Positions 53,633-57,055 of a stretch of DNA of 64,000 nucleotides are shown here, in pieces. The stretch spans positions 30,597,187 through 30,661,186 of the forward strand of contig NC_089281.1 in NCBI RefSeq assembly GCF_963678975.1. Reading direction: 5' to 3'. Position 1 is the first letter of the stretch; each line of letters begins with the position of its first letter. The notes beneath the pieces were generated by a model. It did not search any database, was not told where the DNA came from, and worked only from the letters and a program-made list of their open reading frames with translations. The stretch comes from Dysidea avara. Its lineage: Eukaryota > Porifera > Demospongiae > Dictyoceratida > Dysideidae. The translations under genes and the position numbers were made by a program.

Positions 53633-56600
53633 TTAAATATATTCACTATTATGAAGCTGTTGCCATTTGGCTAAAATCTCTTTTGATGTTCTTGTGATAT
53701 GATTTTCTTTAATGAAATTTCTTATATCTTTAATAGCTGGAGGGTCACCAGATAGAGGCCATCTAGATGTCAAAAGCTTTGCCTCATGCTGCTTCCACCG
53801 TCGCAGTGCAGATAGAGTGCGGATGTTTGCGTGTGCCTCTGTGGCATCAACATTGTTCATATATTCATAGTATGTCTCACTTGTCTGTGCACTGTGACTG
53901 AGGTGTTTTACTGTCTTGCGTCTCTTCATTTCATCTAGGTGACGTCTAGCCTCACTGGAAATCAGCACTCTGTATAAACCAGGCTGAGGTGGAGTCATAG
54001 ACTTTGTCCCTAATGTGTTTTTGATTCGTCGATACACCTGATCATATTGTTCACCACTTCGAGTCAAGAAGAGGTAATGTTCACAATTGGCTGCAGGAGT
54101 AATCATCTGCCGTATGTTGTCATGGTAGTATTGTATCATGTCATCAACTTCCTCACTAATCACTAGATAAGCCAGCCCCTGTGACCCTGTCTTATGGTGT
54201 ACACATGGAATAACCACCATATCTCCTGATTCTTCACTATAGCTCTCCTCGCGCATTTCAAATTCTGCGACGGTGAGGTTTGAAATAGCTCCTGACCTCT
54301 GCCCATTTCCATAAATGGTGGCTGCTGCTGCATATGCAGTTATTGTATCGATTTCTTCTTTGTTACAATGTCCACTGGAAGCATTCTCAAATGCCTTGCT
54401 TAGCTTAGCCTTTACCTACATATGTATATCACAATTTAATAACAATCGGAGAGTCGGCATATATTTATACCTCCTGGTCATTCAAAAATTCGTTCGGGTC
54501 TTGCAGATGTGGTAAAATCTCTCTCACTACTAGGCCACGTTCTTGTTTCTGTAGACTCACATCTTTGTTGAGCCCATGAACCCATTCCTCGATGGAATCG
54601 ATGACCCTGTTTGCCTTGTAGTACAGCTGTGCATCATCAATACTGCGTTTAGCAAATTTTATTGCTAATTTAATTCTGTTCAGCTTCTCTTTCCGTGTGC
54701 TTGGCTTGAATTTCAGTTGCTTCGGGTCCTTCATTATTTCCATAAACCTTTCAAGCTCTGTTATGTTTAGAAGCTTCAAAATATCGCAATTGCTTCCTTC
54801 TGCTCTGCCGAGGTACAAGTTGACATCCCTTGTTATGGATTTTGCAGTAGTTGGATTTTTGCTGTATGACACCTTTAAATATGTTTGGAAGCCTTCATAG
54901 TCAAATTCTTTAGGCTGTTGTGGATGACGGTGTATAAAACTATGCAATCACAAAATGTACTTAATCTTACCAGGTTGTAATCATTGGATGATTTACTATG
55001 AGTAGCAGTCATCGTGCAAGGGGTGGCTGGTTGATCCTGTGAGCATCATCAATCAATTAGTGTTATACAGCTGTAGAGTTCAGCCTTACCATGCTGTTAC
55101 TTTCCATAGACCTTTGGAATGCAGGTACTGGAGCAGCTGTAGCCATTGATTCGATGATACCCTACAGTACAACAATAATTACAGGTATACAAGCTCTAAA
55201 GGATGTCTAACCTACCACGCTGTTGGATTGAGGAACTTGAGGAGCAGTGGACAAGCCGGTAGTCTGTTTAACAATTTGAGTCTATTTACATAAGTTGTAA
55301 GTCAAATACTAATAAAAATGCTAACTTACGTACCATGTTGTTAGGTCGAGGAACTTGAGGAACAGTGGAGACTCCGGCACACTGTACAACCAGTTGTGTC
55401 TATTTATGTAAGTTGTAAGTCAAATACTAATAAAAATTCTAACTTACGTACCGTGTTGTTAGGTTGAGGAACTTTAGGAACAGTTGAGAAACTGGCACTC
55501 TGTGTCTATTTACATAAGTAAAATACTAATATAAATTCCAACTTACTGTGTTGTTAGATTGAAGAAGTTGAGGTGGTGATGCTTGAACAGCCATAGTCAT
55601 TGATCCAGCAGGCTATGGTCATCATGTAAGTAACTTGACATGTATATATAAACATTTAGTTTACCATGTTGCTGCTGCATATGCTAGGTAATGTTGTTTG
55701 GGTAAGGGTACCTGGCATCATTGGTGTCCTAGCCTATATGTTATGGTAAATGTAATAAATACTGTATAAAATTGATGTATTGTAATACCCTTCGAATTGC
55801 CTGTTGAATTTTGACACCTGGAGGCTGGTACAAAAATAATAATTACTTGAAATAGTTACATAATTGAAAAGTAACTACTTACACGGTGTCCGTGCTGTCT
55901 TCCCAGTTTTAAATAATGGTGTCTCTCCTCGGTGGTTAAATTACTGTGTAGCTTCATAAGATGGTCCGCCAACTTTGAAACGTTTCTGGTGGTACAGCCT
56001 GGCACACGGCAGCTCATAATGGTTCGATTTGGCGGTGGTCGTTTCTTCTTCTTTTTCGCTGGAGATTGTGATCTACACAATTAGCAGTGCACAAACAGGT
56101 AGCAGCAGCAGCAGCATTACCTTGCTCTTGTTGAATATACCTTTTGAAGTGTTGTAGCTATTTTTGCTGCAGCTGTGCCAATCCATTCAAAATCTGGATG
56201 GCTTTTCAAGCCATAATCAAAGAATAATTCCTCTCCATAGGAAATGTCTTTCTTGGCTACAAACCCAATTTTTAGTTCAGCACGTGGAGGCTCTCCAATA
56301 AGAACTGGTGACATTTTGACTAGGTTATAGTTTCTTCTTGCATGGTTAATGTACCTCCCTGGATCATTGATAGATGCTGCTGCATCAAAAACATATGTAA
56401 CATTGTCATATGTTGCATCTAAGCAGTAGCACCCAATATCTAGGGAGGCATTGCGTTGGTCCCCCCAATCCTCTCCATGTTTCTTACGTACCACACCCCC
56501 ATACTCGCACACAAAGTCCCCAGCCTTGAAGGTCTTTGCAGCAAAGGCAGATCTTCCTCTGCCTGATACTTCCTCGACGATGACATTCTGGCGTGAGTAC

Positions 56601-57055
56601 TGTTTCCCTTTCAATAGCCCCCATAAATATTTCTCTTTGGTAGTTGCCAGTGGATGGGGTGTGGTACTATTGTCCTGAAATCCTTCATTGGTACAGTTAT
56701 CTAAGAATAAAATTTTCTATGAATTTCCTGTGATATTGCAAGTGTTACGTACCTAAGGTTTCAGTAGATTTGTTGGTATCTGTGTTGCCTAGTGAGCTTG
56801 AGGCTGTATGTATAAATTGTACAATACTGGTGAGTTCAACTTTCATTCGGAATATACCTCTGATGGTTGGTTGCACAGCTGAAACTGGCTTGCTCCGCTC
56901 ACTCACTGTAGTAACTACTGGTGGTGTGCATTTGCACATAACATTGTTGTTGGAATTTGAAGTTTCTGATAGAATCAAAAAGACAAAGTATACACCCAAA
57001 AAAATGTCACACAATAACACACCTGTTGTTTGTATGGTTGGCTTTAATTTTGATT
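53633..57055 (-). CDS. SET domain - C2H2 finger - tyrosine recombinase fusion gene
   Basis: Exons read on the minus strand are 57055-57023, 56965-56858, 56803-56753, 56700-56121, 56072-55883, 55824-55789, 55733-55665, 55612-55547, 55499-55452, 55381-55334, 55263-55216, 55161-55090, 55036-54971, 54914-54471 and 54415-53633. All introns are GT-AG and about 40-85 bases. All phases join, giving at least 870 residues. The SET domain (KMT5A-like) has VSGRGRSAFA, NDPGRYINHA and GEELFFDYG, the S-adenosylmethionine and lysine-channel motifs. A K-rich stretch and CRVPGC...HLMKLH finger follow, then nine short phase-0 exons. The recombinase has a core-binding domain (FDYEGFQTYLKVSYSKN), then YGNGQRSG (Arg), VHHKTGSQG (Lys), LYRVLISSEAR, HLSHSAQT (His) and ETYYEY (Tyr). 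The HxxR His is not evident. The true 5' end is unresolved. Two separate genes are the alternative, but the AG|A junction joins SET to finger in frame. Confidence 0.8.
55090..55824 (-). repeat. Array of short homologous linker exons
   Basis: Within the SET-recombinase gene, at least three exons (55263-55216, 55381-55334 and 55499-55452) are 48 bases each. They encode variants of STAPQVPQSNSV, STVPQVPRPNNM and STVPKVPQPNNT, each followed by a GTACGT/GTAGGT donor. Neighbouring exons end in related SNNT or SNSM text. They arose by tandem exon-intron duplication and lengthen a Pro/Ser/Asn-rich linker without breaking the frame. Confidence 0.85.

Follow-up and report, generated by a model that had tools for sequence, protein, structure and literature searches.

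In the demosponge Dysidea avara, chromosome C10 probably harbours at its right end a mobile element of telomere repeats that has captured a histone methyltransferase; its 5' half would encode a protein joining a SET domain to a tyrosine recombinase (YR), here YR1, and its 3' half a second recombinase, YR2. The stretch analysed (the window, 64,000 nucleotides) covers C10:30597187-30661186 of a 550.8 Mb genome, and it represents the right end of the chromosome because the length of C10, 30661186, coincides with the last base of the window; telomere repeats (TTAGGG)n fill its final 1.4 kb. The first-pass annotation of this DNA had described the SET-recombinase gene and had offered two explanations for it, a transposon that captured a SET domain or a domesticated chromatin-targeting recombinase. 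The former is supported by many decaying copies, by a sharply defined 3' boundary beyond which the flanks differ, and by an interstitial copy with two ends. The description can be extended: the window reaches the tip of a chromosome, and the unit, which is embedded in telomere repeats, carries a second YR.

Boundaries and distribution of the unit

The unit extends over about 13.4 kb in the window (Table 1), and over about 10.3 kb in a copy on chromosome C15 which has both ends (approximately 75997-86255, with C15:83959-86149 outside the comparison). Homology between these copies begins at window 60130 and C15:75997, and a genome search for the 5' end with three mismatches allowed finds these two places only; the 5' end of a further unit, at C15:1.749M, was looked for and not recognised. 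At the opposite side the terminus TCCGGGG is located at window 46678 and C15:86249. The general form of this end is TCCGGGG or TTCGGGG, followed by (CCCTAA)n with varying n (the first repeat being imperfect in two cases) and then by other sequence, and the older copy of the window (41518) and the C15:86249 copy have the same type of end.

At loci found via protein similarity, short CCCTAA runs lie 0.9-1.2 kb past the YR2 gene. Eleven loci of two YR2 families were examined (L018, L020-L025, L028, L031, L032 and L037); seven of them reach the terminus and telomere repeats come next in all seven, while in L022, L028, L031 and L032 homology ends before it. Three of the seven (L023, L024 and L025) belong to an end block shared by C10, C6 and C11, and may be one duplicated block. 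This block contains both genes, covers about 13 kb with C6 and about 9 kb with C11, is more than 99% identical in the pieces compared (about 2 kb in its middle lie outside the comparison) and leads into three different flanks. When ten flanks, taken 187-330 bases past the repeats, were compared, only 1 of 45 pairs was alike (74% over 133 bases), and the copies of one family (family C), 98-99% alike at several places, also differ in their 3' flanks. Two adjacent telomere units were found at 11 of 30 overlapping YR loci (L009-L038) versus none of 12 DUF3504 loci (L075-L086). At the level of sequence, the 3' boundary of the unit at telomere repeats is precise.

No unit end, no CCCTAA and only three single TTAGGG are present between the SET-YR1 gene and YR2, and for this reason both are taken as one unit. 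The C15 copy is flanked on both sides by CCCTAA in the same direction, which would fit a YR crossover within one repeat unit. Fixed position and polarity in telomere repeats, the marks of TATE-like telomere insertion, can be recognised in these sequences, for the 5' side in two copies. A scan of the open reading frames inside the unit revealed no reverse transcriptase, RNase H or recognised viral gene, the short exons being covered in part; a retroelement was rejected because neither reverse transcriptase nor RNase H appeared in the frames scanned.

Across the genome the YR query finds at least 81 places and the SET query at least 34, all family counts being lower bounds. Merging of YR places within 3 kb gave 47 clusters. 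The assembly has 30 chromosome ends, and 17 of the clusters are no more than 50 kb away from one of them (expected fraction 0.0027); outside C15 the proportion is 16 of 21, and the corresponding figure for Crypton-type YRs is 0 of 136. For the controls, distances of 50 and 100 kb both yielded 0 of 142 clusters for DUF3504 (from 150 of the 151 places, those listed) and 0 of 71 for the C48 peptidase (one place on a small contig being left out), and at 250 kb 5 of 142 for DUF3504. The YR clusters touch eight different chromosome ends within 100 kb, although shared end blocks make them partly dependent. The units are also oriented. Among the 24 strand-separated clusters no farther than 250 kb from an end, 22 turn the 5' end toward the telomere (p 3.6e-5, a value that ignores shared blocks), versus 15 of 24 elsewhere.

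Truncation at telomere repeats is seen on C11 and C3. At the left end of C11 (L100) the telomere array runs straight into the finger exon of the gene, and the SET domain is consequently gone; on the same chromosome, a copy of the other YR2 family that has been truncated at its 5' side comes after the CCCTAA run of the unit. At the left end of C3 about 26 last bases of the unit, with one mismatch, are found between two stretches of telomere repeats. Both ends fit cycles of insertion, tip loss and capping.

Two other chromosome ends deserve description. Near the left end of C6, L029 and L030 (C6:27749-31831 and C6:40625-44707) lie in opposite directions and are 100% identical over 4083 bases, as in an inverted duplication. 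At the left end of C10 (C10:1-300, L096) no telomere is present in the first 300 bases, and a YR gene of the family adjoins.

The SET-recombinase gene, its product and selection

The gene is read on the minus strand from the ATG at 57248 to the stop at 53633; its introns are of GT-AG type, the phases agree throughout, and beyond the finger exon every intron is of phase 0. The translation of its 17 exons is identical, with zero mismatches, to the NCBI protein P0001 of Dysidea avara (925 residues), and the fusion gene is accordingly a predicted model, as NCBI models are predictions. The chain of GT-AG exons in unbroken phase proposed in the first-pass annotation is retained, but neither its start at 57055 nor its fifteen exons, because exons 57248-57201 and 57153-57108 precede; P0001 differs from the chain first built from the window solely in a longer second exon, 57153-57108. 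The predicted protein comprises in this order a PIP-box-like motif, a KMT5A-like SET domain, a basic stretch with a C2H2-like finger, a linker whose repeated nature had been noticed before and corresponds to a tandem repeat of period 118, the YR and a Myb-like tail.

The motif QSSLLNYF resembles the PIP box, through which proteins bind PCNA, and appears as QSTLLSYF in two of five further copies examined (C15:1.749M and C15:469k), and none was seen in the examined stretches of C7R:39.463M, C15:1.736M and C15:52k. The diverged copy at C15:1749389-1752611 contains SET (74% identical), finger and YR1 in unchanged order, and retains by eye the GT-AG intron between SET and finger (junction 56121/56072), the next linker exon, the PIP-box-like motif and the C-x4-C...H-x4-H pattern of the finger. 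The finger claimed earlier is sustained by this pattern and by the conserved junction, but not by Pfam, which gave no significant match to it. The association of SET with YR exceeds chance, a same-strand YR being present within 6 kb downstream in 14 of 21 SET clusters of the SET-YR family, and upstream in 1 of 21. When long proteins were searched with the YR portion of P0001, only P0001 itself was returned, and an NCBIfam scan of P0001-P0003 gave no match.

By sequence, the SET domain is KMT5A-like, as first proposed: in addition to the Pfam match (Table 1), KMT5A/SETD8 was the closest structure in a PDB search (E 1.6e-12), the top ten rows being all KMT5A/SETD8. The Tyr at the F/Y switch of KMT5A determines monomethyl specificity, and a Phe at this position would permit more than monomethylation. 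A Phe (ELFFDYG) occupies the switch in the nine rows compared, one of them the window (L042 is broken around the site), where KMT5A has Tyr, and we predict from sequence that the SET domain of the Dysidea avara unit may methylate beyond the monomethyl state. A SET domain of the type of the window gene also occurs in P0002, together with a C48 protease and a PIP-box-like motif, QATLLRYF, which hints at further variants of the SET combination; inspection by eye of the Dysidea avara genome for a C48 peptidase adjoining SET gave none close. Dense SET matches at C1:8.3-10.0 Mb, none of them recovered with the SET query of the window, represent another expansion of a SET family.

The nature of YR1 was addressed by comparison of profiles with hhalign. 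A family profile of 47 sequences against 71 XerD-type sequences gave a probability of 96.1, an E value of 2.9e-9 and a score of 72.8 over 296 columns, the controls being 18.8 for the reversed profile and at most 17.5 for 30 column-shuffled profiles; as a yardstick, Crypton-type sequences of Dysidea avara reach 95.7. Arg I, Arg II, His and Tyr of the family align with their XerD counterparts. Judged from these profiles, the family belongs to the tyrosine recombinase superfamily, with a core-binding and catalytic fold homologous to XerD and lambda Int. An alignment of six rows, in which the other five share 25-39% identity with the first, keeps Arg I, Lys, Arg II, His and Tyr unchanged and in YR order; in a larger one of 31 rows, fragments among them, no row deviates at Lys, at Arg II, at two His or at the second Tyr, and Arg I is outside the conserved lists, some rows beginning past it. 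In the tree the YR2 loci form one group (support 100/99), and a separate group holds YR1 together with relatives (91/97).

Profile searches had been suggested at the outset for the three domains; Pfam identified SET but missed finger and YR, the latter becoming significant by comparison of profile with profile. Over the core-binding domain of YR1, a weak Phage_int_SAM_4 match appeared in 4 of the 20 members examined (best E 0.0042), Pfam and PHROGs named no integrase family for the YR, and hhalign against three YRs only, or against shallow Crypton sets, was not significant, unlike the deep XerD set. A relation to Cryptons, also raised in the first-pass annotation, was discarded: DUF3504, whose model finds 151 places in the genome, does not match the YR exons of the window at E<=1, and the Crypton-type YRs of this sponge with DUF3504 are not telomeric. 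Two scans of viral contigs for YR relatives found none, and a search of genome contigs confirmed none. For the extra domain upstream of YR2 (49789..50385), Pfam gave no significant match. The tail of YR1 was compared with the PDB; the best-placed entries, TRF2 at E 0.18 and c-Myb at E 0.23, are not significant, and TRF2 is absent when the 31-row alignment is used. A telobox identity was considered, but the tail is called only Myb/SANT-like because the telobox (TRF2) matches are not significant; that it may bind telomeres is a guess.

Low ratios of nonsynonymous to synonymous substitution (dN/dS) were obtained for SET (0.10 and 0.12 in comparisons with two diverged copies, at a dS of about 1.75) and for YR2 (0.09 and 0.08 against two diverged copies, those two being 99% alike), indicating that both domains are constrained by purifying selection between diverged lineages; YR1 is weakly tested. 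Pairs with dS above 3 or not computable (SET against two more copies, YR1 against diverged copies) were not used.

Table 1. Coordinates in the window of the unit, its genes and the chromosome end
Feature	Position	Strand	Basis
Whole unit, 5' terminus near 60134, 3' terminus 46672	46672..60134	-	Homology to C15 copy; TCCGGGG terminus
5' terminus, telomere-like palindrome TTAGGGT(T)AACCCTAA then [C/T]GAACGTTATGG	60112..60134	-	Two copies only
SET-finger-linker-YR1 gene, 17 exons, 925 residues	53633..57248	-	Spliced translation equals NCBI protein P0001
PIP-box-like motif QSSLLNYF	57112..57135	-	Sequence
SET domain, KMT5A-like	56210..56557	-	Pfam PF00856, E 2.7e-14
C2H2-like finger C-x4-C-x10-H-x4-H, after basic stretch	55946..56011	-	Sequence; kept in C15:1.749M copy (by eye)
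Linker, eight short exons, lengths multiples of three, part tandem repeat of period 118	54971..55824	-	Exon chain and repeat analysis
YR1 N-terminal core-binding (SAM-like) domain	54471..54914	-	Inside XerD-type profile match
YR1 catalytic domain	53825..54415	-	Arg I 54298-54296, Lys 54193-54191, Arg II 53971-53969, His 53896-53894, Tyr 53869-53867
YR1 C-terminal Myb/SANT-like tail	53636..53824	-	Weak Myb_DNA-bind_4 match (11 of the 31 members; best E 0.0023)
Extra core-binding-like domain upstream of YR2, found without catalytic part	49789..50385	-	By eye in translation
YR2, second recombinase, same catalytic motifs, intron inside	47789..49282	-	Alignment and tree
3' terminus TCCGGGG, then one imperfect CCCAGA, then exact CCCTAA repeats	46654..46678	-	Sequence
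Older 5'-truncated copy, YR2 part of unit, end GTGTCCGGGGCCCTAAC (one CCCTAA unit)	41505..45750	-	Sequence comparison
Terminal telomere array (TTAGGG)n of C10	62575..64000	+	Window end is C10 end

Other features surround the unit. A Penelope-like element lies between telomere repeats at window 60636-62618 (Pfam reverse transcriptase E 2e-5, GIY-YIG E 3.3e-4), its 5' side apparently cut directly by the terminal array, and similar sequence apparently comes after the CCCTAA run of the unit in some flanks (C15, C6R and C7R, by eye). Four groups of transposase-like open reading frames, hAT-like by eye, are located at 1584-3251, 14260-15564, 25028-26936 and 29557-31455, one of them being an uninterrupted frame of 632 residues. 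An Rfam scan over 40000-62600 gave no match.

Alternative explanations and proposed mechanism

Several observations weigh against the proposal of a telomere-inserting element. The 5' end of the unit is known from two copies only, and the copies on C10, C6 and C11 may be segmental and not separate insertions. A genome search recovered eight 3' ends, a count that is circular because the search pattern contains CCCTAA. Among more distant YR clades a CCCTAA run within 1.5 kb downstream occurs only at L035 (one of five), with none over the same distance at L017, L029, L030 and L038. C15 alone holds 26 of the 47 YR clusters, only 6 of which lie within 250 kb of its ends, and its share amounts to 42 of 81 YR places and 17 of 34 SET places, compared with 6 of the 150 DUF3504 places listed. 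Close YR2 pairs show dN/dS of 0.50 and 0.86, YR1 compared with the close copy on C15 gives 0.36 and 0.37 from few changes (16 codons), and the SET domain at C15:79k is incomplete and interrupted by a stop. The recombinase, earlier described as complete-looking, has the five invariant residues in the six-row alignment, but the His of its HxxR box is replaced by Gly, and its Myb tail is without significant telobox likeness. Finally, no circular form of the unit, no empty site and no transcript came to light, the fusion gene being a prediction.

This last point leads to an explanation in which SET-finger ends early and YR1 is a separate gene, the two being fused in the prediction only. The protein database does contain predicted proteins with YR alone, but these may be single exons of spliced genes; phases are consistent over 17 exons and the NCBI model is the same, 14 of the 21 SET clusters have the same-strand downstream YR, and the intron between SET and finger with the next linker exon is kept in the diverged copy. 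We regard such a separation as very improbable. A different possibility is a subtelomeric gene family spread by chromosome-end exchange, where broken ends invade internal CCCTAA and copy to the tip, and the recombinases need not act. Exchange would agree with the 9-13 kb shared by C10R, C6R and C11L up to the CCCTAA stretch (above 99% in the pieces compared) and with junctions that carry telomere repeats. It agrees poorly with a break point behind TYCGGGG that the old copy has in common with two separate families, with both ends being present in the interstitial C15:76-86 kb copy, with family C copies 98-99% alike at several places in front of different 3' flanks, and with selection on SET and YR2 and conservation of YR residues, and we consider it unlikely. 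A domesticated host protein, in which a recombinase-derived DNA-binding domain brings SET to chromosome ends, was the other proposal of the first-pass annotation. The many decayed and truncated copies, the boundary common to copies and the conservation of catalytic Arg, Lys and Tyr, which a mere binding domain does not need, oppose it, and despite the purifying selection on SET and YR2 and the location, off C15, mostly at chromosome ends, it has very little probability.

For the telomere-repeat mobile element that we favour, the following mechanism can be envisaged. The pair of recombinases would excise or copy the unit, probably as a circle with its ends joined across one CCCTAA unit, and YR1/YR2 would recombine it into a telomere repeat in fixed direction, TYCGGGG abutting CCCTAA and the 5' end facing the tip. 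Loss of the chromosome end would shorten copies at their 5' side, the addition of telomere repeats would cap them, and the entry of new units into the cap would generate arrays of the same polarity. The SET domain may act on histones, with H4K20 as the most likely site of methylation, either near the insertion or, directed by the PIP box, at replicating ends, and this methylation might render subtelomeric chromatin permissive or stable for the element. In this scheme we infer the circle intermediate, the recombination itself, the methylation target, the binding of PCNA and continued movement. A broader proposal, which we put forward tentatively and consider possible rather than probable, is that of a new superfamily of animal DNA elements that would insert into TTAGGG telomeres with a pair of YRs and carry a PCNA-tied methyltransferase of H4K20 type setting the chromatin of chromosome ends, the ends of sponge chromosomes being arrays of units and Penelope-like elements of the same polarity that arise by insertion, erosion and healing.

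If true, an animal with TTAGGG telomeres would possess a telomere-inserting recombinase element, a chromatin writer fused to a recombinase and a record of chromosome-end erosion and healing, a combination that we did not find in our searches of the open-licence PMC literature. Whether a selfish element edits histone marks at its own target would become testable, a TTAGGG-directed integrase might be available, and sponge subtelomeres could be read as layered insertions. The unit suggests how a parasite of chromosome ends might adjust the chromatin of its own habitat.

Comparison with known systems

Endogenous nimaviruses of crustaceans carry telomere-repeat-specific YRs, in which five of seven key residues were located by the authors describing them (PMC10871703). 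These YRs are described there as part of viral genomes (278-401 kb in majaniviruses) and target (TAACC)n, whereas the Dysidea unit has about 10-13 kb and no viral gene was recognised in the frames scanned; the term SET domain is absent from the paper's text (PMC10871703). The TATE elements of kinetoplastids are similar to the Dysidea unit in being YR elements that form tandem clusters in telomeric hexamers at the same relative position, but encode reverse transcriptase/RNase H, and no reverse transcriptase was found in the scanned frames of the unit (PMC6681497). A YR at telomeres is therefore of an already known kind, as both nimaviral YRs and TATE have been described. Cryptons share with the unit that they are animal DNA elements moved by a YR (PMC3212892); the unit differs in having no DUF3504 match, a different location, two YRs and the SET fusion. 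C48 peptidase is among the domain names in the legend of figure 1 of the Crypton paper (PMC3212892), and in P0002 C48 is joined to SET. Telomere-associated Penelope-like elements are telomeric too, but they are retroelements and are not moved by a YR (PMC3846280). In the window such an element adjoins the unit with the same polarity.

For a fusion of SET with a YR, no description was found in searches of the open-licence PMC literature. A parallel is SETMAR, in which, as in the Dysidea unit, a SET domain is joined to the recombinase of a transposon. Unlike SETMAR, which is one host gene carrying a mariner DDE transposase, the Dysidea unit is a multi-copy element with a YR.

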